Shown here piece by piece: positions 21,474 to 63,807 of a stretch of DNA of 64,000 nt (position 1 is the stretch's first letter; each line of letters starts with the position of its first letter). The notes under the pieces are model-generated. The model was not told the DNA's origin and ran no database searches. It was given only the letters and a program-made list of their open reading frames with translations. The translations under genes were made by a program, and so were the position numbers. The DNA is from Larkinella humicola (GTDB lineage: Bacteria; Bacteroidota; Bacteroidia; Cytophagales; Spirosomataceae). The stretch is from the NCBI RefSeq assembly GCF_008727875.1, contig NZ_VTWS01000007.1, positions 186,001 through 250,000 of the forward strand, given 5' to 3'.

Positions 21474-21540
21474 AGGGAGAAATGAGAAAATAGACAAGAG
21501 AAATAAGACAACGTCTGTATTCATTTCCCGTTTCTCCTGT
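21474..21540. repeat. Imperfect inverted repeat made of short words
   Basis: The left half carries GGGAGAAATGAGAAA and TAGACAAGAGAAATAAGACA; the right half carries TTTCCCGTTTCTCC, complementary to the outer left part with few mismatches. The word TAGACAAGAGA reappears in the repeat at 60174-60258. It lies directly upstream of the FAD oxidoreductase start. Confidence 0.5.
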
Positions 21541-21574
21541 TACAAGCATAACCGCTTGAGCAGGCTCAGGGTTT

Positions 21575-21605
21575 AAAGAAAAAGCCACCCCGTTTCGGAG
21601 GTGGC
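21575..21605 (-). terminator. Intrinsic terminator of the gene at 21625
   Basis: On the minus strand a stem of about 9 bp (GCCACC.CCG / CGG.GGTGGC) with a 3-4 nt loop is followed by TTTTTCTTT. It lies 20 nt past the stop of the hypothetical secreted protein. Confidence 0.8.
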
Positions 21606-21624
21606 CTGGATCGGACGGTTCATT

Positions 21625-22005
21625 CTAATTCCCAACGCTTTCTTCGGTTTCAGCCCGGTTGGCAACTTCGGGTTTGTTGGCCGGTGGAGGGCTGACCATT
21701 AAATTCTGCTGCTTATAATTTCGGTTAGCCATCGAGGGTTTCGCCGGAATGGCAATGGCCGGGTCTCCAAGGCCGCCCCGGCGTTGCTGTTCGCGGTAGC
21801 TGGCAATGTTCTGCGGCTGGCGTTTCCGAATTCGGAAGGTAATCCCCGACTCGGGTTCCCATTCGCGGGCTGCTTTTGCCTTATTTGGATGTTTGTAATT
21901 CGCTGTCGAATACGTAGGGTCTCGTTTCACTTTATCCTGTGAAGTCGCCGGCATAGCCAAAGCTATCGCCAGCAGACCCAGACAGGTCTTCCATATCGTC
22001 TTCAT
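21625..22005 (-). CDS. Small secreted hypothetical protein
   Basis: 126 aa from the ATG at 22005 (MKTIWKTCLGLLAIALAMPATSQ), which gives a clean signal peptide; the longer frame starts with polar residues. The mature about 100 residues are basic, rich in Arg, Lys, Asn and Pro, of low complexity and probably disordered. No family is recognised. A good intrinsic terminator follows, so it seems to be a real single-gene transcript. Confidence 0.7.
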   Translation of the reverse strand: MKTIWKTCLGLLAIALAMPATSQDKVKRDPTYSTANYKHPNKAKAAREWEPESGITFRIRKRQPQNIASYREQQRRGGLGDPAIAIPAKPSMANRNYKQQNLMVSPPPANKPEVANRAETEESVGN

Positions 22006-22096
22006 GGGAGCTGTGGTTTTGTTGTACCGGGAAAACAATAAAGTTGTTTCCGTTGCCAATATAACACCACAAATAATAACTACACTTTTCGTTATT

Positions 22097-22630
22097 CTAT
22101 TTTTTCTTTGTATTCATCCGAATTATCGATTTTTCAGTCGTCAATTTGCCAATTTCACGCACATCTACCCAACGAACCTCCTTCGTTTCTGCTGTCTGTA
22201 CAAATGGTTGGTCTGTTGTGGCTTCCAGTAAAAACCGAATATCGTAATGAAGGTGTTCAGGCTCTGAAACTCGCGCGGGAATCGTATGAACATCCACATC
22301 AAAAATAGCCCGGTTCACCACTTTCAGATCCCGAAGACCGGTTTCTTCCTCGGCTTCCCGCAGTGCCACCCCGAGAAGATCCGGATCACCGTCGGCGTGT
22401 CCGCCGGGTTGAAACCAGCGGTCGAGTTTGGCGTGATGGAGAAGAACCACCTGCCAGCGGTCGGGGCTGACGATCCAGGCCGAACCGGTCACATGGCCGA
22501 TGGTCAGTTGCCGCTCGAAGCAGTTGGGATGGTTCCTGACGAATTGAATACTGTGTTCCAGCATGGTCCTTTCATCTTCGTCGAAAGGCTGGTGGTGCTT
22601 TAACAAGTCTAGCAAGGGTTGACGGTGCAT
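22097..22630 (-). CDS. NUDIX hydrolase
   Basis: 177 aa. The Nudix box is GGHADGDPDLLGVALREAEEETGL (metal-binding REAEEE core), preceded by VLLHHAKLDRWFQPGG. NUDIX enzymes hydrolyse nucleoside diphosphates linked to other groups; the substrate cannot be told from sequence. The N-terminal about 40 residues (MHRQPLLDLLKHHQPFDEDERTML) are a helical extension often seen in NUDIX proteins of this group. The start ATG is well defined. It stands alone, upstream of a gene on the same strand. Confidence 0.93.
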   Translation of the reverse strand: MHRQPLLDLLKHHQPFDEDERTMLEHSIQFVRNHPNCFERQLTIGHVTGSAWIVSPDRWQVVLLHHAKLDRWFQPGGHADGDPDLLGVALREAEEETGLRDLKVVNRAIFDVDVHTIPARVSEPEHLHYDIRFLLEATTDQPFVQTAETKEVRWVDVREIGKLTTEKSIIRMNTKKK

Positions 22631-22711
22631 ATTTGATATTCAAGTTGGCAATGAAGAGAAAAAACTGCAATTTCGTCCTGATTTTACTACGACATACAAT
22701 TAACTGAAACT

Positions 22712-23629
22712 ATGAAAAAAATTTCCATTCTAGCCACACTGACGCTGGTTGCCCAGCTTGCCATCGCCCAGATTAAATTGCCGCAAGCCAGCCCGGGTGC
22801 AACAGTAATCCAGACGGTTGGAACCACTGATTTTACCATAACCTATTCCCGGCCCAGCCTGAAAGGACGCGCAGCCCTGGGTGCACAAACACCCCTGGCG
22901 CCATTCGGCCAGCTCTGGCGGACCGGTGCCAATAGCGCAACCACTTTTAAAACGACTACCGATGTCATGGTGCAGGGCCAGAAATTGCCTGCCGGTACTT
23001 ATTCGGTATTTACCATCCCGAACCAGAACGACTGGACCCTGATCTTTAATAAAAACCAGACCGCCAGTGCGGAAGAAGGCATTCCGAACGGATACAAAAA
23101 AGAAGAAGATGCCATTCGGGTGCAAATAAAAGCAGAAAAAGTCTCCCGCCCCCGCGAAACGTTCACCATCGACATCAGCGACCTGACCGATAGCACCGCC
23201 AATTTAAACTTCTACTGGGCAGATACGCGGGCCATCGCCAACCTCAAAGTCGACGTGCTGGCCAATGCGCAGGCTAACGTCGAGAAAGCCGTTGCCGACA
23301 AACCCGAGGATGCCGGTATTCTGCAAGCGGCCGCCAACTGGAACCTTTCCAAAAACCGCAATCTGGACCAGGCGCTGGCGTGGGCCGATAAGTCGATCGG
23401 GCTGAAACAAACCTATTCGAACCTGTGGATTAAAGCCCAAATCCTGTCAAAAATGGGCAAGGTAGCCGAGGCATTACCGCTGGCTCAAAAGGCATTGACG
23501 GTAGGTGAAGCGTCCAATGACCCGGTTTTCCGATTCTACAAAGACGGCATTCAAAAAGGGGTTTCCGATTACCAGGCACTGATTCCAGTGGACACTAAAG
23601 CCCTGAAAGGCAAGAAGAAAAAAGCATAA
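22712..23629 (+). CDS. Secreted DUF2911 protein with helical repeat tail
   Basis: 305 aa. The signal peptide is MKKISILATLTLVAQLAIAQ. Residues about 25-175 form a DUF2911 domain (TITYSRPSLKGRAALG, LAPFGQLWRTGANSATTF, LPAGTYSVFTIP, WTLIFNK), a beta-sandwich common in Bacteroidota whose function is unknown. Residues about 185-290 are tetratricopeptide-like helices (AAANWNLSKNRNLDQALAWADKSIGL, ILSKMGKVAEALPLAQKAL). It probably acts in the periplasm or on the outer membrane. It ends with a strong intrinsic terminator. Confidence 0.9.
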   Translation: MKKISILATLTLVAQLAIAQIKLPQASPGATVIQTVGTTDFTITYSRPSLKGRAALGAQTPLAPFGQLWRTGANSATTFKTTTDVMVQGQKLPAGTYSVFTIPNQNDWTLIFNKNQTASAEEGIPNGYKKEEDAIRVQIKAEKVSRPRETFTIDISDLTDSTANLNFYWADTRAIANLKVDVLANAQANVEKAVADKPEDAGILQAAANWNLSKNRNLDQALAWADKSIGLKQTYSNLWIKAQILSKMGKVAEALPLAQKALTVGEASNDPVFRFYKDGIQKGVSDYQALIPVDTKALKGKKKKA

Positions 23630-23651
23630 GCTTTTGACAAACAATACTCAT

Positions 23652-23696
23652 AAAAACCGCTTTCAATCATTGAAATTGAAAGCGGTTTTTATTTTT
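23652..23696 (+). terminator. Strong intrinsic terminator after the DUF2911 gene
   Basis: A 16-bp perfect stem (AAAAACCGCTTTCAAT and its complement, arms 23652-23667 and 23675-23690) with a 7-nt loop is followed by ATTTTT. The A-rich left flank may let it act on both strands. Confidence 0.9.
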
Positions 23697-23741
23697 ACAT
23701 ACAACTATACACCCCAAGGATAGTTTTCAGCATATTTGGAT

Positions 23742-24065
23742 ATGCCAACTGAACGCGTCCGTATTCAACAACTAGAACATCTCGCCATTGAGCAGGGACA
23801 AGCCATCGAGAGTGTGGCCCGGGGTTTAGCCAATCTGACCGTCACGGTCAAGTAGGAATTTGCCCAGGTTAACAACCGGCTTAATAGAATAGAAGGTGAT
23901 GTGGCCGAAATGAAAACCGACGTCGCTGGACTGAAAACCGACGTTGCCGAAATCAAAACCGATGTCGCCGGATTGAAAACCGATGTGGCTAGTTTAAAAG
24001 TCGGACAGGGTCGTATGCAACTGACACTCGATATGCTCTTGGCGTATCTCAGAGAGCGTCTTTAG
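23742..24065 (+). pseudogene. Heptad-repeat coiled-coil gene interrupted by an in-frame TAG
   Basis: One frame from the ATG at 23742 (MPTERVRIQQLEHLAIEQGQ) to TAG at 24063-24065 would give 107 codons, but codon 38 (23853-23855) is TAG. Beyond it the frame continues cleanly: EFAQVNNRLNRIEGDVAEMK, five seven-residue units of the type DVAxxKT, then MQLTLDMLLAYLRERL. The stop probably replaced CAG (Gln), so it is a young pseudogene or a site of readthrough. The intact product would be a small parallel coiled coil. No family is recognised. A terminator isolates it upstream. Confidence 0.65.
23898..23999 (+). repeat. Five 21-nt tandem units encoding heptads
   Basis: Units start at 23898, 23919, 23940, 23961 and 23982 (the last is 18 nt). 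Each encodes DVA, two varying residues, K and T, alternating GL with EM or EI. This is coding repetition in a coiled coil, in frame on both sides, not a CRISPR or satellite. Confidence 0.85.
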
Positions 24066-24074
24066 CCCTAAAAA

Positions 24075-25778
24075 TCAGGAGGGAGTTACCGTTTTCTGCG
24101 TAGGCACAACCTGTTCCAGTAACCAGGCAATTCCGATTAACAGGACGCAACCGATGACATTCAGCCACAGAAATGCGGTCAGTTCAGCCAGCCAGCACCA
24201 GACGACAAGCCCCTCGGTAATCACGGCGGCCCAGAAGGTGGCCTTCCCTCCTATGGATTTGAAATAAAAAGCCACCAAAAATATCCCCAGAATAACGCCG
24301 TAAAAAAGTGACCCCAGGATGTTGACGGCTTCGATCATGCTCCCCAGCTTGCTGGCAAATTGGGCCACAATGATGCAGAACACCCCCCAAATGATGGTCG
24401 CCACCTTTGACGCCTTCAAATAATGCCCATCGGAATAGTCTTTGCAAAAAAGTCGCTTGTAAATGTCGACCACGGTGGTGGAAGCCAGCGAACTGTAGGC
24501 CGCGGCAATCGACCCCATCGACGCACTGAAAATAACGGCAATCAGTAATCCAATCAACCCGTGGGGCAGAAAGTCGAGAACGAAACGGAGAAAAACATAA
24601 TTGACATCACTCGTATCGCCCACCGGGTTGTTCTTTTTAATCAGATTGACCACCTGCCCCTTCACCGCTTTGGCTTCTTCATCGGTTTTCAGGATTACCG
24701 CCTTGGTTTGTTCAACAGAAGCGTCGTTTTTTTCGGAAAGGGCCTTGTTTAAAGTCAAAACCGCCTTCTGGCGACGGGCCGCAATAGTTTGGTGTTCCGT
24801 TTCCAACTGCCGGTATTGATCCGCATACGGGCTTTTCAGCAGTTGATCGGTCTCTACTTTATTAAAAAAAACCGGGGAAGGGTTGAACTGGTAAAATACA
24901 AATACCAGCACACCCACCAGAAGGATCAAAAATTGCATCGGAACCTTCAACATTCCGTTGGCCAGCAACCCCAACCGGCTTTGCCCAATCGATTGACCCG
25001 TCAGATACCGCCCCACCTGCGACTGATCGGTACCGAAATAAGACAGTTGAAGGAAAAAACCGCCAATCAGTCCGGACCAAAGATTGTAGCGGCTGTCGGG
25101 GTCAAATTTGAGGTCGATGGTATTGAGCCGCCCGGCTTTTCCGGCCACTTCCAGCGCATCCATAAAACCGACATCCGCCGGAAGCAGATGCACCGTCATC
25201 CAGCCCGCAATAAACATGGCCACGGTAACAATCAGCATTTGCTGGAGGTGTGTATAGGAAATGGCTTTGGCGCCACCCGTCACGGTATACACCAGCACAA
25301 TGCCGCCCATGATGATGTTGGTCCAGAAGATGTTCCACCCCAGAATGGTCGACAAAATGATGGATGGTGCGTAGATGGAAAGGCCCGTCGATAATCCGCG
25401 TTGCAGCAGGAAGAGCAAAGCCGTAAAGACGCGAACCCGGGCGTCGAACCGGGATTCGAGGTACTCGTAGGCGGTAAAAACTTTCAGCCGGTGGAAAATG
25501 GGAACGAACGTGACGGCAAGCACCACCATCGCCAGCGGCAGGCCAAAATAAAACTGAACAAACCGCATCCCGTCCGTAAAAGCCTGCCCAGGCGTGGAGA
25601 GAAACGTAATGGCACTGGCCTGGGTGGCCATCACAGACAGGCAAACGTGGTACCACGGCAATGACTGGTTGGCCAGCAGGTAATCGCCCATATTGCGGTT
25701 TCCCCGGCTGCGAACCACCCCATAAACAATGATGATCGCCAGTGTGCCAGCCAGGATGAGCCAATCGAGACTGCTCAT
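24075..25778 (-). CDS. Sodium:solute symporter (SSS family)
   Basis: 567 aa with about 13-14 membrane segments. SSS features: GDYLLANQSLPWYHVCLSVMATQASAITFLSTPG in the first helices (sodium-site region) and AYEYLESRFDARVR. Substrates of the family include sugars, amino acids, nucleosides and anions; none is indicated here. A hydrophilic coiled-coil insert of about 80 residues (KVETDQLLKSPYADQYRQLE to VVNLIKKNNP) sits between two membrane segments, an addition compared with the classical fold. Its ATG overlaps the stop of a 41-aa membrane protein gene (ATGA), so the two are translationally coupled. Confidence 0.93.
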   Translation of the reverse strand: MSSLDWLILAGTLAIIIVYGVVRSRGNRNMGDYLLANQSLPWYHVCLSVMATQASAITFLSTPGQAFTDGMRFVQFYFGLPLAMVVLAVTFVPIFHRLKVFTAYEYLESRFDARVRVFTALLFLLQRGLSTGLSIYAPSIILSTILGWNIFWTNIIMGGIVLVYTVTGGAKAISYTHLQQMLIVTVAMFIAGWMTVHLLPADVGFMDALEVAGKAGRLNTIDLKFDPDSRYNLWSGLIGGFFLQLSYFGTDQSQVGRYLTGQSIGQSRLGLLANGMLKVPMQFLILLVGVLVFVFYQFNPSPVFFNKVETDQLLKSPYADQYRQLETEHQTIAARRQKAVLTLNKALSEKNDASVEQTKAVILKTDEEAKAVKGQVVNLIKKNNPVGDTSDVNYVFLRFVLDFLPHGLIGLLIAVIFSASMGSIAAAYSSLASTTVVDIYKRLFCKDYSDGHYLKASKVATIIWGVFCIIVAQFASKLGSMIEAVNILGSLFYGVILGIFLVAFYFKSIGGKATFWAAVITEGLVVWCWLAELTAFLWLNVIGCVLLIGIAWLLEQVVPTQKTVTPS

Positions 25779-25900
25779 GAAAAATACCGCATAAATCCGT
25801 AAAACAAGATAATTTCGAGCAGCAAACTGCCAATGACAATGCTGTATAACTGGCGCCAGGAACGCGCAAAAGGAGGCAAATCCGTAGATTTTTGGGTCAT
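25775..25900 (-). CDS. 41-aa small membrane protein coupled to the symporter
   Basis: The frame starts at the complement of 25898-25900: MTQKSTDLPPFARSWRQLYS, then IVIGSLLLEIILFYGFMRYF and S. A polar N-terminal half precedes one membrane helix of about 20 residues. The TGA shares bases with the symporter's ATG, the usual arrangement of co-translated partners. It may be an accessory subunit of the transporter, as small partner proteins occur beside some SSS carriers; this is inference. No known family is recognised. Confidence 0.7.
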   Translation of the reverse strand: MTQKSTDLPPFARSWRQLYSIVIGSLLLEIILFYGFMRYFS

Positions 25901-26073
25901 CGCAGAACGGTGGTTGGTTCTTTCTTCTTTATGGCAACGAAAATAGGCAAATCTCTCGTATACAATTTACCTTTCCCGTCATTAAAACTATCCTACCTTA
26001 TTTTTGAATTGTTCAATTTTAAAGATAGTTTGCAGGCAGGCTTTTCCCGATCCCCCACAAGATACGGTCAAAT

Positions 26074-26862
26074 ATGGCAAAACTACCCGGAAATGACGCG
26101 GAGAAATCCGTTTTTGGTTTGGACGGCAAAGTGGCACTGATCACGGGAGCCAGCAAAGGCATTGGCGAGGACATTGCCCGCATCTTTGCCCGTTTCGGTG
26201 CCAGAGTCGTGATTAGCAGCCGTCGGCAAAGTTCCCTCGACGGCGTCGTTGCCGAAATCCGGAAAGACGGTGGAGAAGCCTGCGGCATTGCCGCCCATGC
26301 CGGCGACCACGACCAGCTCCGGCACCTGGTCGATAAAACCGTGGAGGTATATGGCGGAATCGACATTTTGGTCAACAACGCAGCTACCAACCCCATTTTC
26401 GGACCGACGATTGACTGCGATCTGGCCGCTTTCGATAAAATCATGCAGGTGAACGTCAAGGCCCCTTTTGAGCTCAGTAAAATGGTATATCCGATAATGA
26501 AAGCCCGGGGCGGTGGCAGCATCATCATGATGAGCAGCATTGCCGGCGAAACGCCCGACCCCGGTTTGGGCATGTACAGCGTTAGCAAAGCGGGTCTGAA
26601 CATGCTGACCAAAGTTCTGGCCAAAGAATGGGGGCCCGACAACATCCGCGTCAACGCCATCTGCCCCGGCCTGATCAAAACCAAATTTAGTCAGGCGCTC
26701 TGGCAGGATGAAGCGATTCTGGCTCATTTTACGCACCGCTTGCCCATCGCCCGCATGGGTACCACCGACGAAATCAGCCCACTAGCCCTGTTTCTTGCCT
26801 CCAACGCATCGGCGTATTGTACAGGCAGTTTGTTTCACGCGGACGGCGGAACGTTGATTTGA
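26074..26862 (+). CDS. Short-chain dehydrogenase/reductase (SDR)
   Basis: 262 aa, classical SDR. The cofactor motif is TGASKGIGEDIA, with basic residues after strand 2 (VVISSRRQSSLD) favouring NADP(H). NNAATNP, the catalytic Ser in IIMMSSIAGETP, and Tyr/Lys in YSVSKAGLNML complete the site; FHADGGTLI ends the fold. SDRs of this type reduce 3-oxoacyl groups or alcohols and the substrate is not identifiable. It is monocistronic and convergent with the OmpA-family gene, separated by about 66 nt. Confidence 0.93.
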   Translation: MAKLPGNDAEKSVFGLDGKVALITGASKGIGEDIARIFARFGARVVISSRRQSSLDGVVAEIRKDGGEACGIAAHAGDHDQLRHLVDKTVEVYGGIDILVNNAATNPIFGPTIDCDLAAFDKIMQVNVKAPFELSKMVYPIMKARGGGSIIMMSSIAGETPDPGLGMYSVSKAGLNMLTKVLAKEWGPDNIRVNAICPGLIKTKFSQALWQDEAILAHFTHRLPIARMGTTDEISPLALFLASNASAYCTGSLFHADGGTLI

Positions 26863-26928
26863 GTCCTGACCACTGTACGTGTCAAAAGAATCTGACGGAA
26901 TGTTCAGGAACGTTTTTTTTGAGTTTCT

Positions 26929-29208
26929 TCACTGAACCGATACAATTTTAAACTCTGTTCGTCGGTTTTTTTGGTGTTTACTTTCGGGACAGGCAACTTC
27001 GTCGGTACAGCCATTCAGGATTTCAGTCTCACCATACCCCTGAGCATCCAGCCTTGAAGGGTCGATCCCATGGTTAACCAGATAATCGACCGTGGCTCTG
27101 GCCCGGTAGGTCGACAGTTGCAGGTTGTAGGCATCGTTGGCGCGGCTATCGGTGTGCGACCGGAGTTCAATTTTCATTTCCGGGTATTTTTTCAAAAGAA
27201 CGGCTAAATGATCCAGTTCCCGGGCGGCATCCGGGCGAATGAAAAACTTGTTGTAGTCATAATAGATGTTTTTCAGCTCAAATACATCGCCCTCACCATA
27301 GATCCCCTGCTGTTTTTCAATCAGCTTGGGATTTTTTCCAGCCTTCATTTTCGGGATTTGTTCACTGTTGGCTGTATAGCGGTTTTTCTGCGTGGTCAGC
27401 GTGTAGGGAGCCCCTGGTTTCATTTCGAATTCATATTTGCCATCCGTTCCGGTCACGACTTGCTGTTCCGATTTGTCTTTATCATTCCGCAAGGTCACCG
27501 TCACGCCCGGTGCGGGCTGCTGGTTTACTTCGGTTTTCACCGTTCCTTTCACCAGCGTATTTTCACTTTTTTCCAGGTAGATCGACACCGTCATCACCGG
27601 CCTTTCCGATTGCGTCATCGTCGAAAACCGGATGCTGTTGGGAGAGTACCCTTCCTTAATGGCCTTAAACTCGTAATCGACATTGGCATCGACACAAAAA
27701 CCGGTTTTCCCATCAACCCCGGTAAAGCGCAAATCCTGATTCACCCCGGCTTTGATCACCCGAACATCGGCCACGGCGATGGGTTCACTGGTTTTGGCAT
27801 CATAAACAAAAATGTTCAGTTGCTTGCAGGTTCGCCGGAAACTGTAAATATTGTCGTCACTGACACCCCGTTTCCGGTTGCTGCTGAAATACCCGGACGT
27901 CCGGTTTTTGGTGGTAATGAGGCCAAAGTCGTCTTTTTCCGAATTAATGGGATACCCCATATTCTGAACACCTTTAAAAGCGATTCCTTCCCGCAGTTCA
28001 GCATAAAACAGGTCGAGCCCCCCCAACCCTTCATGACCGTCCGAGGAGAAGTAGAGGTTGCTGTTTTCGTCAACAAACGGAAACATCTCGTTGCCTTCCG
28101 TATTGATTTCCTTGCCCATGTTCACCGGCGACGACCACTGCCCGTCCTTGAACTCGACCACATAAATATCGGTTCCGCCAAAACCGCCCGGCATATCCGA
28201 CACAAAATACAGTTTGGTATCATCCGGTGATAAAGCCGGATGTCCGACCGAATAATCGTTGCTGCAAAACGGAAGTTCCTCGACCTTCTGCCAACTCCCT
28301 TTGGCATTTTCAGCGATGTATAATTTCAGTTTCCGAATGCCATCGTTACTTTTTCCGCCTTTCCCTTTGGCGGTGTTGTTACGGGTGAAAATGATCCGGC
28401 TCTGGTCTTTGAAAAAAGTCATCGGCCCCTCGTGGTATTTCGTGTTGAGCGTCCGGCTGAACAATTCGGTTTTGGAAAGCGACTTTTCTTCCACGGGTGC
28501 TAGCTCAACCGCGTCAGCCGTCGCATTACTTCCACCCAGCGAAGCCGCCCGGGCCGCGAGTTCTGCATTATTTTGCAGTTCAGCCGTATCAGGATAAAAA
28601 TACAAGTCCAGAAACGGGGTTTGATTCCAGCCAAAAACCCGTTTGACCGGTCCCGTTTCGTCGCGCGCTGATACAAAAGCCAAACCGTTCTGGTAATACA
28701 TCGGGCTAAAATCGGCCTGGCGGGAGTTGACCGGCAGAAATTCCACTTTATAGGAAGAGGAATCCTGAAAAAACCGGTTCATGTCCATGTAGGAAACCGT
28801 AAATTTCCGGCCCCGCAAGTCTTCATTCTGTTTTTCTCCATATTTGCTGTATAGTTTTTGCGAATCGCGGTATTTGCCATTGGCGGCCAGTGCCTGGGCG
28901 TAGTAAAGGTAATTTTTGGAGTCGGTTTCGGGAAATTCCCGGATCAAATCGGCGTAGATTCGTTCGGCATTTTTAGTATCCTGCAACGCGCGGTAACTAT
29001 AGCCCAGTTTGGTGTAAGCCTCCTGCACTTCAGCGGGATCTTTCTTTTTGTCGAGTCGCAAAAAATCCTCATACGCCCGGGCCGCATTCACATAAGCCAG
29101 ATTCTCAAACTGTTTGTTAGCCGCCTTCAGTCGCGCACTTTGCGCCTGAACGGCCAACGCCACAATACTCAGGATGGCACTCAGCAGGAACAATCGTACG
29201 TATTTCAT
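26929..29208 (-). CDS. PorE-like OmpA-family protein (TPR, PD40 propeller, CarboxypepD_reg, OmpA)
   Basis: 759 aa. The signal peptide is MKYVRLFLLSAILSIVALAVQAQ. Domains in order: tetratricopeptide repeats (about 25-130, ANKQFENLAYVNAARAYEDFL); PD40/WD40-like strands (about 160-440, HPALSPDDTKLYFVSDMPGGFGGTDIYVV); a carboxypeptidase-regulatory-like fold (about 470-640); and an OmpA peptidoglycan-binding domain (about 650-755, MKIELRSHTDSRANDAYNLQLS). This order matches PorE of the type IX secretion system, which ties the outer-membrane ring to the cell wall; other Bacteroidota proteins share the layout, so the name is tentative. It fits the T9SS cargo found in this window. Confidence 0.85.
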   Translation of the reverse strand: MKYVRLFLLSAILSIVALAVQAQSARLKAANKQFENLAYVNAARAYEDFLRLDKKKDPAEVQEAYTKLGYSYRALQDTKNAERIYADLIREFPETDSKNYLYYAQALAANGKYRDSQKLYSKYGEKQNEDLRGRKFTVSYMDMNRFFQDSSSYKVEFLPVNSRQADFSPMYYQNGLAFVSARDETGPVKRVFGWNQTPFLDLYFYPDTAELQNNAELAARAASLGGSNATADAVELAPVEEKSLSKTELFSRTLNTKYHEGPMTFFKDQSRIIFTRNNTAKGKGGKSNDGIRKLKLYIAENAKGSWQKVEELPFCSNDYSVGHPALSPDDTKLYFVSDMPGGFGGTDIYVVEFKDGQWSSPVNMGKEINTEGNEMFPFVDENSNLYFSSDGHEGLGGLDLFYAELREGIAFKGVQNMGYPINSEKDDFGLITTKNRTSGYFSSNRKRGVSDDNIYSFRRTCKQLNIFVYDAKTSEPIAVADVRVIKAGVNQDLRFTGVDGKTGFCVDANVDYEFKAIKEGYSPNSIRFSTMTQSERPVMTVSIYLEKSENTLVKGTVKTEVNQQPAPGVTVTLRNDKDKSEQQVVTGTDGKYEFEMKPGAPYTLTTQKNRYTANSEQIPKMKAGKNPKLIEKQQGIYGEGDVFELKNIYYDYNKFFIRPDAARELDHLAVLLKKYPEMKIELRSHTDSRANDAYNLQLSTYRARATVDYLVNHGIDPSRLDAQGYGETEILNGCTDEVACPESKHQKNRRTEFKIVSVQ

Positions 29209-29351
29209 AGTGAATTGAAAGGGTTACTCATCCAAAGCATCAAAATGAATGCCAAAAATTGTTTGTACATCACATTTATACGTATTGAAATCGTATCTTT
29301 TAGCAACCGTTGACAAAAAAAGAAAACGGTTTTTAAAAAATAAAGGGATTG

Positions 29352-30726: not shown

Positions 30727-30834
30727 TACCCGAAATGGTCTGAAATCCGTTGCGTCGGTTCAGTAGAAAAGTATTCCTAGTTAATCATTTAATCGGCGTA
30801 ATCCCAGTTTCGATTCGTTAGAAAATTTTTTTCC

Positions 30835-35233: not shown

Positions 35234-35322
35234 CAAAACGAACCGGGAAAGCACCGAGACCACGGAGAAAATCGCACCGGCGACCTCTCTCTGTGTCCTT
35301 TGTGCTTCTTCGGTTCGTTTTG
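35234..35322. repeat. Long imperfect inverted repeat between omega and coaBC
   Basis: Arms 35234-35269 and 35285-35322 pair strongly at the outside (CAAAACGAACCG with its complement), then at AAGCAC/GTGCTT and less well inward (CACGGAGA opposite TCTCTGTG). The loop is about 15 nt. The inner arm is built of GAG/CAC words. It sits inside a probable operon and ends 20 nt before the coaBC start. Confidence 0.65.
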
Positions 35323-49636: not shown

Positions 49637-49716
49637 CGGTTTTCCGTATACGGTTTACGGTGGCTGACGCGTGCATCTGAATGCGTCAGCCACCGTAAAC
49701 CGTATACGGAAAACCG
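49637..49716. repeat. Perfect 34-bp inverted repeat between convergent genes
   Basis: Arms 49637-49670 and 49683-49716 are exact reverse complements with a 12-nt loop. The arms contain repeated words (CGTATACGG, GTTTACGGT) and end inward with GGCTGACGC. It lies between the stop of paralogue 2 (49619) and the stop of htpG (49727) and could terminate both transcripts, though it lacks U-runs. Confidence 0.9.
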
Positions 49717-52876: not shown

Positions 52877-52955
52877 AGTTAAGAGTTAAGAGTTAAAAAT
52901 TAAGAGTTGGCTGACGCATACAGAACTCTTAACTCTTAACTCTTAATTCTTAATT
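52877..52955. repeat. AT-rich inverted repeat of GAGTTAA words
   Basis: The left arm (52877-52908) repeats GAGTTAA; the right arm (from 52924) repeats AACTCTTA. About 28 of 32 positions pair. The 15-nt loop reads GGCTGACGCATACAG, starting with the same GGCTGACGC as the inner arm of the perfect repeat at 49637-49716. It lies between dapF and rplS, upstream of the dapF start. Confidence 0.8.
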
Positions 52956-55097: not shown

Positions 55098-55547
55098 TGC
55101 CAATGCGGGGCGTTTCAGGCGATCGTTCGGTCGTAATAATACCCGCCTTTAAAAAAGATTTCTTCTTCTCCATCTATTTTCTTACAACCATCGTAGATAC
55201 AAGCGGGTCTAACGCTGTGTAATACGTTCCCAACCGGTGTAGAAAAAAGTCCACAACTACTCGTTTTTTCGCGGTTCACAGGAAGGTCAGAATTGCTTTT
55301 TAGAACTTTTTAATCGGATAACCGTCTGTAAATCAGGCGGCATTTTCTATTAATCAGTCAGACCCAAAAAACGGTTCTCACTGGAATAGTATTTGATTAA
55401 ATGGTAGGTAATTAAGCCGATTTGAAAGGCGAAAACTACCTGTTTTGAAAATCGCGTAGTTGTACGCATTCCAAAATCGCCCGGATTGCCGAATTTTGTA
55501 GCCTATATCCAGCATATCCTATATCAACACCATAATTGAACGTTACC
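55098..55547. other. Intergenic region without recognisable gene
   Basis: 450 nt of AT-richer sequence. A possible -7-like tract (GAATTTTG) lies near 55493-55500, about 50 nt before the small gene at 55548, with no convincing -33. No tRNA, riboswitch-like pairing or strong terminator stands out. Confidence 0.4.
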
Positions 55548-55715
55548 ATGAGAAATGTTGTCCCGAAAGAATGGAGAGCGAATCGTACAGGAGGCCGCCG
55601 TGCTCGATTTGAAATTGACCAGATTTCACTCTTAGGCGTCTTGACCGTAATGATTTTTGCTTATATTCTTTTCCACTTCGTTTACCCGATCATTTCGAAA
55701 GGGCTCTTCTGGTAA
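55548..55715 (+). CDS. 55-aa small membrane protein
   Basis: The frame ATG to TAA encodes MRNVVPKEWRANRTGGRRAR, a strongly basic N-terminus, then FEIDQISLLGVLTVMIFAYI and LFHFVYPIISKGLFW, one membrane helix ending in an aromatic-rich tail. A positive-inside N-terminus and single helix suggest an inner-membrane peptide, possibly a small subunit of a larger complex. A near-perfect intrinsic terminator lies 28 nt behind, supporting a real transcript. No family is recognised. Confidence 0.6.
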   Translation: MRNVVPKEWRANRTGGRRARFEIDQISLLGVLTVMIFAYILFHFVYPIISKGLFW

Positions 55716-55742
55716 CTTATACCAAGCAAACCACACCAGATA

Positions 55743-55799
55743 GATTTCATCAGGAAAAGCGGATTTCAAAACCGGCGGCTCCTGATGAAATCTTTTTTT
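55743..55799 (+). terminator. Strong intrinsic terminator before feoB
   Basis: Perfect 13-bp outer stem (GATTTCATCAGGA and complement, 55743-55755 and 55780-55792) followed by TTTTTTT. It ends the transcript of the 55-aa gene and just touches the feoB stop on the other strand. Confidence 0.9.
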
Positions 55800-57936: not shown

Positions 57937-57995
57937 GGGTACTATAGAATGAAAAAGCCGGGAACTGTCTTACAACCCCCGGCCCCCTGGCGATA

Positions 57996-58238
57996 TTATG
58001 GTTCGATTAATATGGTAGCCGCTTCAGATTTCCGCATCGATAAACAATATCCGGAAACATTCAGACAAATGGGATCTCCCAAGGGTGCCTTGCAGTGCAG
58101 ACACACTTCCGTGCCGGGTAAACATCCCATCTCAAGCAACTTCAGCGACATCCATTGGTCACTAAATGACTCGATTACCGCTTTTTCGCCAACCTTTAAA
58201 TCGGCGACACTGCGCTTCTGTATTTTTCGGTGGGGCAT
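57996..58238 (-). CDS. feoA: FeoA-family protein
   Basis: 80 aa, an SH3-like FeoA domain: SVADLKVGEKAVIESFSD, LKLLEMGCLPGTEVCLHCKAPLGDPICLNVSGYCLSMRKSEAATI. FeoA regulates or assembles with FeoB at the inner membrane. It is the first gene of the feoAB operon. A possible minus-strand promoter tract (TTAATTTG, complement of 58264-58271) precedes it, without a good -33. Confidence 0.93.
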   Translation of the reverse strand: MPHRKIQKRSVADLKVGEKAVIESFSDQWMSLKLLEMGCLPGTEVCLHCKAPLGDPICLNVSGYCLSMRKSEAATILIEP

Positions 58239-58548
58239 GCGCGTACGATATTTAGACTTATTACAAATTAATGCAAGTTAACGGATATCCGTTCGCTTTT
58301 ACAAGAAATGTTTCAAAAAAACCGGGGTTTTCCGGCAGGGCGCGTAAACGAAATAATTAGTTAAAACAGATAGATCCCACAAACCGGATTAATTCCGGGG
58401 ATCCCTCTCTCCTGCCCGTGAAAAAACCGCCCTGGTATCAAGCTGAACTGGGGTTTGTGTTGTAATTTTGTAGAATCTGGTACAAACAGTCGAAATTCAT
58501 ACATTTTGGCCGGATAACGGAGGGTAAAATCCCTCAGGCGACAGCGCG
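58239..58548. other. Divergent intergenic region feoA/ccmB
   Basis: 310 nt. On the plus strand TAATTTTG at 58463-58470 fits the -7 consensus for the ccm operon, about 80 nt before the ccmB start, but the -33 position is poor. A weak -7-like tract faces feoA. An iron box cannot be identified with confidence. No small gene is seen. Confidence 0.45.
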
Positions 58549-59217
58549 ATGCAACAGATCAGAGTATTAATCGGCAAAGAATTTCGGTTGGAATGGCGGC
58601 AGCGCTATGCCCTGAATGGGATGCTGCTGTACATCGTCAGCACGGTTTTCGTTTGTTTTCTGAGCTTCAGCCTGCGCCGGAACCAACTGACGCCGATGGT
58701 CTGGAACGCCTTGTTCTGGATTATCCTGTTGTTTACGGCCATCAATGCCATTGCCAAAAGTTTTGTGCAGGAACGCGCCGGGCGGCTTCTGTACTATTAC
58801 ACGCTGGTCAGTCCGCAGAAAATCATCCTGTCCAAAATTGTGTATAACACCCTGCTGATGTTGGTGTTGGCCGGTTTGGGGTTCGGGATTTACACGCTGG
58901 TGATGGGCGTTCCCGGGGAGGGGATGGACATGCCGCTGTTTGTGGTCAATCTGCTGCTGGGTGCCATCGGCTTTGCGGCTTCGCTGACGCTGGTTGCGGG
59001 CATTGCCTCCAAAGCCGAAAATAGTGCGACACTCATGGCGGTTTTGAGTTTTCCGGTGGTGCTTCCTTTGCTGCTTATGCTGATTCGGGTGTCAAAAAAT
59101 GCACTTGATGGCTTGGACCGTAGCGTTAGTCTGGACGAAATCGGAACTTTGCTGGCCATCGATGCCATTGTGCTGGTGTTGTCGGTGTTGTTATTTCCCT
59201 ATTTGTGGAGAAGTTAA
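58549..59217 (+). CDS. ccmB: Haem exporter/cytochrome c maturation permease CcmB
   Basis: 222 aa with six membrane helices. IRVLIGKEFRLEWRQRYALNGMLLYIVSTVFVCFL at the N-terminus, FVQERAGRLLYYYTLVSPQKIILSKIVYNTLLML and SKAENSATLMAVLSFPVVLPLLLML are CcmB blocks. In System I it works with the ATPase CcmA; ccmA is not in this window. It is first in the operon ccmB-C-D-E-F. Confidence 0.93.
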   Translation: MQQIRVLIGKEFRLEWRQRYALNGMLLYIVSTVFVCFLSFSLRRNQLTPMVWNALFWIILLFTAINAIAKSFVQERAGRLLYYYTLVSPQKIILSKIVYNTLLMLVLAGLGFGIYTLVMGVPGEGMDMPLFVVNLLLGAIGFAASLTLVAGIASKAENSATLMAVLSFPVVLPLLLMLIRVSKNALDGLDRSVSLDEIGTLLAIDAIVLVLSVLLFPYLWRS

Positions 59218-59218
59218 T

Positions 59219-59923
59219 ATGACTATGAAAAAAAACTGGTGGAAAGCCCTGGCCGTCGTCATCATGACGTATGTGATCTGGGTCGGTCTTCTGGGAACGG
59301 TTCCCCGTCAACCCATTCTGAATGAGAGCATTCGCAACGTCTATTTTCACGTTCCTTTGTGGTTTTCGATGATCATCCTGATGCTGACGTCCATGATCTA
59401 CTCGATCCGGTATCTGCGAAAAGGGCGCATGGACGACGATCATATTTCCGTAGAATTTGCCAACAGCGCCATTCTCTACGGTATTTTGGGGTGCGCCACC
59501 GGCTCACTCTGGGCCAGCGTCACCTGGGGAGATCCGTGGCCCAACGACCCCAAACTGAATAGCGTTGCGGTCGGAATGCTGATGTATTTTGCCTACCTGA
59601 TTCTGCGAAACTCGTTTGACGACGAATTGCGTCGGGCCCGGATTTCGGCAATCTACAACATTTTTGCCTTTGCGGTTTTTGTGCCGCTCATCTTTATCCT
59701 GCCCCGGCTCACCGATTCGCTGCATCCGGGCAACGGCGGCAACCCGGCTTTTGGCAAATACGACATGGACAGCGGCATGCGGCTGGTGCTGTATCCGTCC
59801 GTGATCGGGATGACGTTACTGGGCGTCTGGATTACCCAACTGCGGGTGCGGCTGCGTCGGCTGCGCGACCGGCTGGATCATGTCAACGATGCCCTGCCCA
59901 AAGCCCATTCCACTGCGGAATGA
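59219..59923 (+). CDS. ccmC: Cytochrome c maturation protein CcmC
   Basis: 234 aa from the ATG at 59219 (second ATG at 59225), just after ccmB. Six membrane helices. NVYFHVPLWFSMI holds the first haem-ligand His, and the tryptophan-rich WASVTWGDPWPNDPKLNSVAVGMLMYFAYLIL corresponds to the WWD haem-binding segment, with fewer Trp than the E. coli motif. LRLTDSLHPGNG holds the second His. It presents haem to CcmE on the periplasmic side. Confidence 0.93.
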   Translation: MTMKKNWWKALAVVIMTYVIWVGLLGTVPRQPILNESIRNVYFHVPLWFSMIILMLTSMIYSIRYLRKGRMDDDHISVEFANSAILYGILGCATGSLWASVTWGDPWPNDPKLNSVAVGMLMYFAYLILRNSFDDELRRARISAIYNIFAFAVFVPLIFILPRLTDSLHPGNGGNPAFGKYDMDSGMRLVLYPSVIGMTLLGVWITQLRVRLRRLRDRLDHVNDALPKAHSTAE

Positions 59924-59965
59924 TTAGCCGACCAAACTTGTTACCACTTTACACTACTCACTATT

Positions 59966-60175
59966 ATGATACCTAAATTCCTAGTCCTTTGCTTTTTGGT
60001 ATTGCTGTCGTTCAGCAGTCAGGCTCAGGAAATTGAGATGGCTGACCGGCTTCGGGCCGATGGTAAAATCTGGGTCGTTGTGGCCGTTTTCCTGGTTACC
60101 TTTGCGGGGGTCATTGCTTATCTCATCCGACTGGATACGAAAATTAGTAAACTGGAAAAAGAGATTTCTAAATAG
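59966..60175 (+). CDS. ccmD: CcmD-like small membrane protein
   Basis: 69 aa. A signal-like first hydrophobic segment (MIPKFLVLCFLVLLSFSSQAQ) precedes ADGKIWVVVAVFLVTFAGVIAYLIRLDTKISKLEKEI, the CcmD-type single helix with a charged cytoplasmic tail. In System I CcmD stabilises the CcmC-CcmE complex. The extra N-terminal segment is a Bacteroidota-type addition. It lies between ccmC and ccmE. Confidence 0.8.
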   Translation: MIPKFLVLCFLVLLSFSSQAQEIEMADRLRADGKIWVVVAVFLVTFAGVIAYLIRLDTKISKLEKEISK

Positions 60176-60258
60176 ACAAGAGAGGTTAGACAAAAGAGTA
60201 AAGACTAAAATGCATCCTGCATTTCTTTATTCTCTTGTCTCACTTCTTTCCTCTCAAT
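60174..60258. repeat. Inverted repeat of GACAAGAGA words between ccmD and ccmE
   Basis: Inner arms 60188-60214 and 60218-60240 pair well (AGACAA.AGA.TAAAG ... AATGCA with TGCATT...). Outer words GACAAGAGAGG and CTTTCCTCTC pair imperfectly. The loop is TCC. The word TAGACAAGAGA is shared with 21474-21540. It occupies almost the whole gap and ends just before the ccmE ATG. Confidence 0.7.
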
Positions 60259-60259
60259 C

Positions 60260-60700
60260 ATGAAAAAAACACATATTCTCGGTATTGTCGTGATTGCCCT
60301 GGCAATCGGTATCATCATCTCCACCGCAGGGGATGCCAGTTCCTACGTGACTTTCACCCAGGCGGCTGAACTGGCTAAAAGTGGTGAATCCGACGGCGTT
60401 CACGTTGTGGGTACGCTGACAAAAGACGCGCAGGGCAAGATCATCAACATGGTGTATCAACCCCAGGTCGACCCCAACCGTTTCGAATTCACGCTGGTCG
60501 ACACCGAAAACCACCTCCAGAAAGTGGTCTACAACTCGCCCAAACCCCAGGATTTCGACCGTTCCGAACAGGTGGTGGTCATCGGCAGTATGCAGGGCGA
60601 TCATTTCCGCGCCGATAAAATCCTGCTGAAATGCCCGTCGAAATACCAGGATAACAAGCTGGAAACGAAGGAATACGAAGCGAAAACGGCAAAGTTATAA
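60260..60700 (+). CDS. ccmE: Haem chaperone CcmE, CxxxY variant
   Basis: 146 aa: a membrane anchor (ILGIVVIALAIGIIISTAG) and a periplasmic OB-fold (about 30-125). The haem-attachment site in classical CcmE is HxxxY; here the aligned tail reads KCPSKY, with Cys near 125 and Tyr near 129. CxxxY forms define a variant System I known from some archaea and bacteria that lack CcmH (family knowledge). CcmE carries haem from CcmC to CcmF. No ccmG or ccmH is seen nearby. Confidence 0.93.
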   Translation: MKKTHILGIVVIALAIGIIISTAGDASSYVTFTQAAELAKSGESDGVHVVGTLTKDAQGKIINMVYQPQVDPNRFEFTLVDTENHLQKVVYNSPKPQDFDRSEQVVVIGSMQGDHFRADKILLKCPSKYQDNKLETKEYEAKTAKL

Positions 60701-60705
60701 ATACA

Positions 60706-60862
60706 TGGTTTTGATGGTTGGATAGGGTTGAATGGTTTTGATGGTTAAAATGGTTAGGTGATCGAACGCTTTCAATCATGACCAATCCATTCAACCATTT
60801 TCAACCATTAGAACCATTTTTAACCATAAAACCACCCCTTTAGCCATTCGAACCATTCAATC
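60706..60862. repeat. Inverted repeat of GATGGTT/AACCATT words between ccmE and ccmF
   Basis: The left half (about 60706-60757) repeats ATGGTT seven times with varying linkers; the right half (about 60787-60860) repeats AACCATT six times. The best-pairing core is TGGTTTTGATGGTTAAAATGG against its near complement at about 60815-60832. The element fills the whole gap up to the ccmF ATG. Confidence 0.7.
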
Positions 60863-63499
60863 ATGATTCATACAACCGTCGGTAATATCGGCCACCTTTT
60901 TGTTATTATATCCTTTGTTACGGCCCTGATGTCCACGTTCGCCTACCTGCGGATTTCGCTGGCGGGTAACGAGCTGTTGCAAAACAAACGGGAAATTACG
61001 CAGTGGCGCTGGCTGGCCCGGGGTGCTTTTTATCTCCACGGCGTCGCCATTTTCGGTATCGTCGCCTGTTTGTTCTACATCATTTCCAATCATTATTACG
61101 AATACCATTACGCCTGGAGTTACTCGTCGCGCGCGTTGCCAGCTGAATACATCATCTCAAGTTTCTGGCACGGACAGGAAGGCAGTTTTCTGCTCTGGCT
61201 GTTCTGGAACGTAATTTTGGGCATCGTCCTGATTCAAACCAACCGCGACGACCGCTCGAAAAGCCTGAGTTCGCGCCAGTGGGAAGCGCCCATGATGACG
61301 GTTTTTGCGTTAGTTCAGGCGTTTCTGGCATCGATGATTCTGGGTGTGGTGTTTGGCGACACCTTCAAAGTGGGCAGTTCGCCGTTCCTGTTGCTGCGGG
61401 ATGCGATGGCCGATGCGCCGATTTTCACCAGCAATCCCAATTACATTCCGGAAGACGGCAAGGGCATGAACCCCCTGCTGCAAAATTACTGGATGGTCAT
61501 TCACCCACCGACCCTGTTTCTGGGCTACGCTACGACGTTGATTCCGTTTGCTTTTTGCATCGCCGGTTTGTGGAAAAACGAGCCGAAAGAATGGATGCGT
61601 CCCGCCCTTCCCTGGGCGTTGTTCTCGGCCATGGTGCTGGGCGTCGGGATTCTGATGGGGGGTTACTGGGCTTACGAAACCCTTAATTTCGGGGGGTACT
61701 GGAACTGGGATCCGGTCGAAAACTCGGTGTTGGTGCCCTGGATGGTTCTGATTGCGTCTATTCACGCCATGCTGATTGCCAAAAAGAGTTCGACCGGGTT
61801 GAAAACCGCCATCATTCTTTCCGTAGCCACGTTCCTGCTGATTCTCTATTCGACCTTCCTGACCCGCAGCGGTATTCTGGGCAATGCCTCGGTTCACTCC
61901 TTTACGGATTTAGGACTTTCCGGCCAGTTGCTGATTTACATGCTGGTTTTCGTGGCCATGGCTGTGGTGCTAATCAGTTTCAAATGGAAATTGATCGAGA
62001 AAGACGAAGAAGAAACTTCCGTGTATTCCAAAGAATTCTGGCTGTTCATCGGTGCCATCGTGCTCTGTCTGGCCGGTTTTCAGGTTCTGAACACCACCTC
62101 GTTTCCGGTGTACAACAAAATTGGCGAAGCCTTCGGATTTAGCCCCAACATCGCCATGCCCGCCGATCAGGTGGCGCACTACAACAAATTCCAGATCTGG
62201 TTTTTCTCGGCCATTGCGCTGTTGACGGGGATCGGGCAATTCATCTGGTGGCGGAAAGTGGGCAAAGGCAACCTGAATTCCCTCATAACTTCCGGCATCA
62301 TTACAATGTTCATCAGTGGCGGTTTGATTGCCTACGGTGATATTACGAAACCGGCTTTTATGGTGCTGCTTACGACATCGGTTTTTGCCATTGTTGCGAA
62401 CGCCAGCATTCTGTGGGGTGTCATTCGGGGGAATTACAAGCTGTCGGGTGGCGCGGTGGCCCACATTGGTGTGGCCCTGATGCTGATCGGGATTTTGTTT
62501 TCATCGGGCTATTCCAAAATTGTCTCCCTGAACAACACCGGTTTGCTGATTTCGAAAGGGGAAGATTTCACGAAAAACGACAACAAGGAAAACAAGGAAA
62601 ACGTCATCCTGTGGCTGAATCAGCCGCAGAAAATGAGTGGTTATTTGCTGACCTACCGGGGCCAGCGGATCGAGATTCGGGATGTGCCGGATTACGTTCC
62701 CCGCAACTGGGTCGAGCCGATTGTGGGCGCCACGCCGGAGCTGAGTTTTCACGGCATTGCGACCCGGGATATTGAACAGAACGGCAAGCTGTATCACAAA
62801 AAAGGCGATACCGTTGCCCTGCATCCCGAAAACACCTACTACGAAGTGGAATACCGCGAACCGGGTGGCAAAATTTTCACCTTGTATCCGCGCGGTCAGA
62901 TCAACGAGCAAATGGGTGCGGGCGGTTTTCTGCCCTCGCCGGATATTCGCCGGATGCCGGGCAAAGACCTCTATACCTACGTTGCGACGGTTCCCGACCC
63001 CAGCAGCGAAGGCACCTGGAGCCCGACGGAAACGTACCGGATTGCGCCCAAAGACACCTTCTTTGTGAACGATTACGTAGCGGTTTTTGACAATGTCATT
63101 CAAACCCGCGAAATCGAAGGAACACCCCTCGGACCAAACGATGCGGCTGTCAAAGCCGTGGTTCGCGTGCTGGACAAGGAGCGGGAATATACCCTGTCAC
63201 CGGCCTTCATCATTAAAGACCGCATGGTGGGCCGCAAAGCCGAAACCAACGAAGAACTCGGCTTACGGCTTCAGTTGAACGAAATTGATCCGCGAACCGG
63301 CCTGTTTACCTTCACGGCCAACACGACCCAGCGCGATTACATCGTGATGAAAGCCAAGGAGATGCCGCTCATCAATCTGCTCTGGATCGGGACGTTTGTG
63401 CTTGTCATCGGTTTTTCAATGGCTGCAATCCGTCGCTACCGGGAATTCACCAAGATGCGGGACAAAAAGAAGCCGACGCTGGTGGGCAGTTCACAGTAG
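60863..63499 (+). CDS. ccmF: Cytochrome c haem lyase subunit CcmF
   Basis: 878 aa, longer than E. coli CcmF (about 650). Many membrane helices. The WWD haem motif reads GYWAYETLNFGGYWNWDPVENSVLVPW; haem His are in YIISSFWHGQEGSFLLW, WMVIHPPTLFLGY and HAMLIAKK. A large periplasmic domain (about residues 560-830) before the last helix is expanded relative to E. coli. It attaches haem to apocytochromes. With the CxxxY CcmE and no CcmH it likely forms the simplified System I. Confidence 0.95.
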   Translation: MIHTTVGNIGHLFVIISFVTALMSTFAYLRISLAGNELLQNKREITQWRWLARGAFYLHGVAIFGIVACLFYIISNHYYEYHYAWSYSSRALPAEYIISSFWHGQEGSFLLWLFWNVILGIVLIQTNRDDRSKSLSSRQWEAPMMTVFALVQAFLASMILGVVFGDTFKVGSSPFLLLRDAMADAPIFTSNPNYIPEDGKGMNPLLQNYWMVIHPPTLFLGYATTLIPFAFCIAGLWKNEPKEWMRPALPWALFSAMVLGVGILMGGYWAYETLNFGGYWNWDPVENSVLVPWMVLIASIHAMLIAKKSSTGLKTAIILSVATFLLILYSTFLTRSGILGNASVHSFTDLGLSGQLLIYMLVFVAMAVVLISFKWKLIEKDEEETSVYSKEFWLFIGAIVLCLAGFQVLNTTSFPVYNKIGEAFGFSPNIAMPADQVAHYNKFQIWFFSAIALLTGIGQFIWWRKVGKGNLNSLITSGIITMFISGGLIAYGDITKPAFMVLLTTSVFAIVANASILWGVIRGNYKLSGGAVAHIGVALMLIGILFSSGYSKIVSLNNTGLLISKGEDFTKNDNKENKENVILWLNQPQKMSGYLLTYRGQRIEIRDVPDYVPRNWVEPIVGATPELSFHGIATRDIEQNGKLYHKKGDTVALHPENTYYEVEYREPGGKIFTLYPRGQINEQMGAGGFLPSPDIRRMPGKDLYTYVATVPDPSSEGTWSPTETYRIAPKDTFFVNDYVAVFDNVIQTREIEGTPLGPNDAAVKAVVRVLDKEREYTLSPAFIIKDRMVGRKAETNEELGLRLQLNEIDPRTGLFTFTANTTQRDYIVMKAKEMPLINLLWIGTFVLVIGFSMAAIRRYREFTKMRDKKKPTLVGSSQ

Positions 63500-63506
63500 G
63501 CATTTT

Positions 63507-63734
63507 ATGAAAATCAGAGAAACCGTTCTTATTTCCCTTTCCATTGGCTGCCTCATTCTCTGGGTTCTGGAGTTCCGGCGGACGCGTACGTTTGGCGAAC
63601 ATTACTGGCTAATTATGCTGTGTCTGGCGTTTTTGCTGGCTTTTATGTATGTTCGTGGCGTACACCTGAATTCGGTCAAACAAAAACCGGCGGTTCCGGT
63701 GAAACCAACCCGAAAAAAGAAGAAAAAGTCTTGA
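63507..63734 (+). CDS. 75-aa small membrane protein after ccmF
   Basis: ATG at 63507, 7 nt after the ccmF stop, so co-transcribed. MKIRETVLISLSIGCLILWV and HYWLIMLCLAFLLAFMYV are two membrane helices with a short loop; the tail is basic (PTRKKKKKS). A charged hairpin protein of unknown family. Its place directly after ccmF suggests a helper in cytochrome maturation or a general membrane protein; neither can be shown. Confidence 0.65.
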   Translation: MKIRETVLISLSIGCLILWVLEFRRTRTFGEHYWLIMLCLAFLLAFMYVRGVHLNSVKQKPAVPVKPTRKKKKKS

Positions 63735-63807
63735 ACTCGGATTACACAGATTAAAGGATTAACCAGGATCGCTGACACGGTCTTTTAATCCGCGTAATCC
63801 GAGTTCA
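63732..63807. repeat. Inverted repeat of GGATTAC words before the last gene
   Basis: Arms 63732-63758 and 63781-63807 match as reverse complements at 24 of 27 positions; each repeats GATTA/GGATTA words. The 22-nt loop contains GCTGACAC, similar to the GGCTGACGC of the repeats near 49.6 and 52.9 kb. Confidence 0.8.

Follow-up and report, generated by a model that had tools for sequence, protein, structure and literature searches.

Inverted repeats built of short words at gene 3' ends of Larkinella humicola and the concerted change of their arms

Seven gene gaps in a 64,000-nt stretch of contig NZ_VTWS01000007.1 of Larkinella humicola (hereafter the window) raise the question of how hairpins can keep one design while the sequence of their stems changes. 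A sequence-only reading of the window had described these gaps as filled by long inverted repeats, each arm being a run of a short degenerate word, and had offered two explanations, compensatory change and a copying process. Exploring the window, the rest of the genome and related genomes, we found that non-coding inverted-repeat elements form a population spread across the genome, and observed their anatomy, their excess over chance, their niche at gene 3' ends, a shared vocabulary of words, paired rewriting of the two arms, inversion of spacers and one difference in presence or absence between species. We favor, at a probability of about 0.6, the explanation that the arms are kept complementary by template switching.

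The population and its vocabulary

The census covered 864 kb, i.e. the window and 40 regularly spaced 20-kb stretches of the same genome, in which genes were called by a simple longest open reading frame (ORF) rule and inverted repeats were reported when an arm of at least 18 nt was at least 80% paired across a spacer of at most 120 nt. It returned 125 inverted repeats, 106 mostly intergenic and 19 mostly within called ORFs, gaps making up only 8.4% of the sequence. The called gaps held 95 inverted repeats, whereas none of 20 dinucleotide shuffles gave any, and proportional extrapolation gives roughly 960 intergenic repeats in the 7.86-Mb genome. Arms were periodic (p<=0.05) in 52 of the 106 intergenic repeats where 5.3 were expected, with a period of 7 in 39 of the 52; other words were 8-10 nt long. 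The excess of word-built arms that was to be sought by cataloguing gene gaps is thus real. Searching the window against Rfam at gathering score yielded no match.

Sorting the words ourselves, we recognized the classes GAGTTAA/GAGTGAA, CGGTTTA, GAATGAT/GAACGAT, AAATGTAAAATG, GATTGAC, AATATTGAAT, ACGGATT/GGATTAC, GACAAGAGA, CGGAGTTAAG and ATGGTT, among others; 25 of the 106 intergenic repeats fit none, and words of different classes can merge gradually within a single arm (stretch L033). Tandem GAGTTAA (at most 2 mismatches) occurred at 96 forward and 92 reverse places of the genome and its reversed-pattern control at 0. A spacer core, TTGGCTGACGCA, was found 28 + 21 times versus 0 + 1 in controls, and the 30 loci examined out of these 49 all lay within an inverted repeat, some of them being two halves of one hairpin. 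A looser form of this core occurred 49 times in the 864 kb, 33 times inside a reported repeat, and was carried by 20 of the 106 hairpins, whose arms were of the GAGTTAA type in 13 and of the CGGTTTA type in 7. Together, the data indicate that the words are a shared vocabulary and that one spacer core links arms of different words; the statement that each locus uses another word was therefore too strong. The same results bear on the possibility that the sites are inverted repeats arisen by chance, or terminators, with no relation to one another. Three window repeats outside all word classes (7085, 16072 and 23650) agree with it, but the contrast with shuffled gaps, the shared words and core, and the periodic arms make it highly improbable, and for the word-built class it is already refuted.

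Examining the position of the hairpins relative to genes, we found a repeat in 32 of 94 convergent, 61 of 277 co-directional and 7 of 107 divergent gaps (convergent versus divergent, p=7e-7; co-directional versus divergent, p=2e-4). Word hairpins alone numbered 16, 32 and 3, respectively, and lay a median of 9.5 nt past the upstream stop codon (n=32). A T-rich tail, as expected of intrinsic terminators, followed the stem of only 6/32 word hairpins and 4/31 other hairpins in co-directional gaps, in line with the earlier view that not all of these structures can be simple terminators.

Concerted change of the two arms in related species

Orthologous gaps were compared in two sister species, G002 (92.5% identity to the window) and G006 (92.1%; 93.2% between the sisters), and in the more distant relatives G005, G003 and G008. 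In the sisters, surveyed over 224 kb of L. humicola sequence, these gaps mostly still bear a hairpin, with the arms rewritten. Word hairpins anchored in G002 (21, with 1 not anchored) comprised 13 that were the same, 5 that were other or strongly diverged and 3 in which no repeat was found; those anchored in G006 (16, with 6 not anchored) comprised 9, 5 and 2. Reading the misses by eye revealed a hairpin still present in 2 of the 3 (G002) and 1 of the 2 (G006), bringing the occupied slots to 20/21 and 15/16, three of them judged by eye. That slots stay occupied after a swap of word is suggestive, the numbers being too small for more. Repeats not built of words were less retained, in 2 of 6 anchored cases in G002 and 5 of 7 in G006.

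To describe how the arms diverge, we counted pairs changed on both sides in all intergenic repeats of the window and of stretches L121 and L122, word-built or not, setting gapped pairs aside. Both-side changes that restored a Watson-Crick pair exceeded expectation in all 5 relatives (observed/expected: G002 25/3.6, G006 22/6.1, G005 23/6.1, G003 9/0.9, G008 12/3.7), bearing out the suggestion that stems change in a compensated way. In the repeat at position 6350 of L122, for instance, three units of one arm went from the GAGTTAA type to GAGTGAA in G002, and the other arm changed to match. In alignments of at least 0.7 identity (G002 and G006 together), double changes comprised 16 transversions and 10 transitions, and single changes 34 and 30; double changes were not richer in transitions than singles, which gives no indication that they went through G-U intermediates.

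Using an alignment-score rule for orientation, we called 3 spacers inverted, 12 in the same orientation and 23 unclear in 38 comparisons, and, with a further sister comparison included, inverted spacers were found at four loci overall (Table 1). At about position 1,059,106 of C11 in the L. humicola genome, a CGGTTTA word hairpin is cleanly absent from both sisters; it was either gained in the L. humicola lineage or lost before G002 and G006 split, and the site lacking it carries no clear target-site duplication.

Polymerase template switching between inverted repeats has been reported, in the pertinent parts of PMC8604942, to be marked by arm homogenization together with spacer inversion, and the relatives display both, as concerted two-arm change in 5/5 and as inversion at the four loci. 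The sites belong to a population placed mainly just 3' of stop codons, and in about half of the elements each arm consists of one short word, usually of 7 nt, repeated in tandem. In the explanation that we favor, DNA synthesis would switch template between the arms and copy one from the other, so that a change in one arm would be written into the other; this would homogenize the arms and at times invert the spacer, while unit slippage would add or remove whole words and a complete hairpin could also come or go as a whole. At gene 3' ends the hairpins would be tolerated and perhaps maintained, and there they may serve as mRNA 3'-end barriers, a role in RNA that is plausible and unproven. Template switching with unit slippage accounts for hairpins that are word-built, self-complementary and fast-changing. 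The causal part of template switching, a role in mRNA and the way in which hairpins first arise are the inferred parts of this account. Between the two earlier explanations, the copying process is better supported than compensatory change, because double changes are rich in transversions, spacers are inverted and, in a Bacteroides pair, one 9-nt word is missing from one arm only; the origin of the words is not covered by it.

Alternatively, the hairpins may be ordinary RNA elements, terminators or 3' stabilizers, with pairing under selection and arms that change by compensatory point mutations. Such elements fit the rarity of hairpins in divergent gaps, and the transcript-strand mismatches of 63 co-directional hairpins (GT 40, AC 25) show a weak wobble bias that leaves room for RNA-level selection, but is not significant (p=0.08). 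At 35234, pairs are maintained with G-U across six species: 90.7% of cells are paired, and 11 cells (0/500 shuffles as high) and 8 pairs (30/500) changed on both sides, as counted on the G002 fold, which comes from one of the compared sequences and so favors that structure. Transversions in 16 of the 26 double changes, the T-rich tail in only 6/32 word hairpins, spacer inversions and whole-word changes argue against this explanation, which we consider unlikely.

Ready-made insertion of non-autonomous mobile elements by a transposase, with other copies refilling the slots in the sisters, would be consistent with the C11 hairpin that both sisters lack, with swaps of word family within one slot, with a nonamer element that has a common foot (ATCC followed by RCRGATTAC) across many phyla and with the patchy distribution of hairpins among genera. 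However, the C11 hairpin is the single presence/absence case among the anchored word hairpins (21 in G002, 16 in G006), and 42 pairs of nonamer elements, some from one locus, showed no clear target duplication of at least 3 nt; a 2-nt match of their feet above chance (18 versus 10.7) is what a palindromic foot would give. Furthermore, the repeats beside 12 loci of RAYT transposases belong to other families. We regard ready-made insertion as decidedly unlikely.

Several points weigh against the upkeep of the arms by template switching. In the distant relatives, a repeat was detected in 2/5 (G005), 4/5 (G003) and 2/5 (G008) anchored gaps. Double changes that left no Watson-Crick pair made up 24/46 in G006, 7/32 in G002, 7/30 in G005, 1/10 in G003 and 5/17 in G008, those of the two sisters arising partly from the alignment of swapped families, and the expectations for both-side changes presume independent sites and rest on MAFFT alignments. 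Some slots switched word family entirely, and arm copying alone does not yield such swaps. Template switching explains the upkeep of the arms, not the origin or vocabulary of the words, nor the gain or loss of whole units. The excess of GT over AC mismatches, seen also in word hairpins (24 versus 14), and the conserved tip of 35234 hint at selection at the level of RNA.

The seven window sites

Folding the seven sites and scanning them for ungapped inverted repeats revealed clear hairpins at six, two of them imperfect (Table 1); the description of long inverted repeats filling all seven gaps thus stands except for 21474, which is weak. Ungapped repeats at 35234, 49637, 52877, 60706 and 63732 had arms of 27-39 nt with 76-95% complementarity. 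The stricter census detector reported 4/7 sites (49637, 52877, 60706 and 63732), with 35234, 60174 and 21474 below its threshold. Arm periodicity was significant at 49637, 52877 and 63732, and not at 60706 (p=0.095).

At 21474, GACAAGAGA-type words are mostly confined to the left arm, and the orthologous gap is almost unchanged in G002, differs in G006 and G008 and has no anchor in G005 and G003. The hairpin at 35234 lies between co-directional Rpb6/omega-like and CoaBC-like genes, that at 52877 between co-directional rplS and dapF, and that at 49637 in a convergent gap adjoining an Hsp90 gene; in relatives of the last, the arms are rewritten and the core is swapped out in G005. The hairpin at 60174 ends one base 5' of a ccmE-like start codon, and its G006 orthologue forms a long, near-perfect stem. 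In a comparison of five species that excluded G005, 8 pairs (7/500 shuffles) and 8 cells (43/500) of 60174 changed on both sides, counted on the G006 fold, again one of the compared sequences and favoring that structure. The inverted spacer of 60706 shares an exact 27-mer with both sisters, as its reverse complement in G002 and in forward orientation in G006, where the spacer holds a second hairpin element. At 63732, G002 retained the foot TTGAAC/GTTCA and replaced the interior.

Table 1. Positions of the hairpins, inverted spacers and CCCCTAAATCCCCTAAAGGGGACTT elements
Feature	Position	Strand	Remarks
Weak imperfect inverted repeat	window 21474..21540	.	stem broken in fold; missed by both repeat detectors
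Hairpin, CACGGAG/CACCGAG words	window 35234..35322	.	arms 38 nt, 76%
Perfect hairpin, CGGTTTA/CGGTATA words, core GGCTGACGC	window 49637..49716	.	34/34 paired
GAGTTAA hairpin, spacer core GGCTGACGC	window 52877..52955	.	period 7, 0/200 shuffles
Imperfect but clear GACAAGAGA-type hairpin	window 60174..60258	.	-35.7 kcal/mol with 30-nt flanks
ATGGTT-word hairpin filling the co-directional ccmE-like/ccmF-like gap	window 60706..60862	.	inverted-repeat scan
GGATTACACAGATTA-word hairpin 3' of ccmF-like gene	window 63732..63807	.	period 9, 0/200 shuffles
Inverted spacer, word-built	window 60706; L121:11974; L369:4943 (our coordinate conversion)		
Inverted spacer, not word-built	L121:3116		
CCCCTAAATCCCCTAAAGGGGACTT element	L122:17452-17544; G006 orthologue of window 60706; G006 orthologue of L368 ~2632		

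The hairpin element CCCCTAAATCCCCTAAAGGGGACTT is missing from the sisters at some sites and lies elsewhere inside spacers of word hairpins; in the G006 orthologue of L368 near 2632, TGACTTCG flanks it on both sides in the manner of a target duplication. Miniature inverted-repeat transposable elements (MITEs) are non-autonomous and hairpin-forming, and a separate class of the L. humicola genome, CCCCTAAATCCCC, behaves like them, whereas no target duplication was found for the word hairpins. Between 8431 and 15000 the window carries broken, partly repeated stretches (e.g. near 8700 and 14107) that by eye resemble decayed copies from a single gene family.

Words in other genomes and comparison with known repeats

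Exploring further genomes, we found the GAGTTAA pattern in 9/9 genomes of the genus (one with a single match) and in 18/59 genomes overall, with abundance in one other genus (G033); the reversed control matched 8/59 genomes, strongly G002 and G055. Among other genera, word hairpins were clear only in G033 and G016 (20 stretches, one all-N stretch dropped). Sharing of GAGTTAA across phyla was not supported, with 8/49 genomes versus 12/49 for the reversed pattern. In G457 (stretch L156), titled Chloroflexaceae, the reversed heptamer AATTGAG is abundant in its own right, with 85 + 52 control matches.

A nonamer pattern, GATTACRCRGATTACRCRGATT, was found in at least 120 stretches from genomes of, by our reading, at least 16 phyla, in a scan run without reversed control and against a random expectation of about 0.5 by our own arithmetic. 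Among 395 Bacteroidota genomes 18 were positive, and 2 with the reversed control. The L. humicola genome gave 0 matches to the tandem nonamer, and its 864-kb sample held 2 copies of a two-unit form (control 0) and no CACRGAGRACACRGAG; the window hairpin at 63732 is weakly tied to the nonamer, through resemblance only. In local folds, 81/141 nonamer sites had at least 16 of 22 bases paired, 80/144 lay within an inverted repeat, and the 144 sites share a 5' foot (C at -5 in 71%, T at -6 in 58%, A at -7 in 64%). A second word, CACRGAGRACACRGAGRACACRGAG (at most 2 mismatches), occurred in 22 of 49 genomes chosen by the nonamer (376 forward, 359 reverse and 0 control matches), a co-occurrence that is not independent because both words share CRCRGA. 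Independence of the nonamer from host GC content is uninformative because it is largely built into the search pattern; its four R positions, the informative ones, showed no correlation with host GC. In one Bacteroides hairpin arm (stretch L226), nonamer words are linked with 7-nt GTTAGTA/GCTAGTA words, so that a single arm can contain words of either kind. It is conceivable that word hairpins form a class of many phyla with a partly shared vocabulary (CRCRGATTA, CACRGAGRA), spread by a putative horizontally moving enzyme that at gene 3' ends would write or copy short words together with their complements; the heptamers of the genus would then be a local dialect. The weak link of the nonamer to the window and its genome lowered our estimate of this possibility, which we hold to be doubtful.

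Short tandemly repeated repetitive (STRR) heptanucleotide repeats of cyanobacteria share tandem heptamers with our hairpins; they are not known to form self-complementary arms. The nearest published work concerns TAACTGA heptamers, repetitive extragenic palindromes (REPs) and template switching. As described in the relevant sections of PMC4679880, TAACTGA repeats occur in Beggiatoaceae, Cyanobacteria and Bacteroidetes and resemble our elements in being intergenic heptamer arrays with mixed heptamers, patchy across phyla; by our own comparison, TAACTCT is a phase of the GAGTTAA complement. They differ, in the same sections, in being direct repeats with one inverted case and no predicted structure, and in lying mostly 5' of start codons in the main genome. 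REPs and REPINs with RAYT transposases are likewise numerous extragenic palindromes mostly 3' of genes, as far as the passages of PMC3733652 on them go; unlike these, our hairpins have no constant GTAG/CGTC foot and have longer, word-built arms. GTAG was found near the foot of 13/106 repeats (2.6 expected) at varying positions and was missing from 93/106, including 47/53 word hairpins, and CGTC near the foot of 2/106 (3.9 expected). Although a RAYT domain is encoded in 9/9 genus genomes, mobilization of word hairpins by RAYT is unsupported: at the 12 loci examined, from 28 matches listed and including one of the seven of L. humicola, the repeats were of other families. RAYT-domain genes of the genus lie near other hairpin families, e.g. 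GTCGCGTTAGCGACC and ACCCACGGTT (L304-L315). Loss of SbcCD as the cause of long inverted repeats was rejected, SbcD being found in 9/9 genus genomes (SbcC was not searched).

Template-switched inverted repeats of yeast and palindromes of nematomorph mitochondria, as far as the pertinent parts of PMC8604942 and PMC6649704 describe them, have arm homogenization and spacer inversion in common with our hairpins; unlike these cases, ours have tandem-word arms, a shared vocabulary, very many intergenic copies and rapid change of length. In PMC full text, with subscription papers and preprints outside its scope, 17 word strings gave no match and the 12-nt core matched one, unrelated paper. The queried parts of two inverted-repeat surveys (PMC13155455 and PMC10434271) contained neither Spirosoma nor Cytophag- nor heptamer, and Bacteroidetes once, in a table.

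The occurrence of the nonamer across phyla suggests a process of spread that the literature searched does not describe. Hairpins with conserved place and pairing but not conserved sequence are normally taken as proof of RNA selection. The transversion-rich double changes and the inverted spacers suggest that copying between arms of DNA can mimic RNA covariation, which calls for caution in covariation-based RNA discovery.

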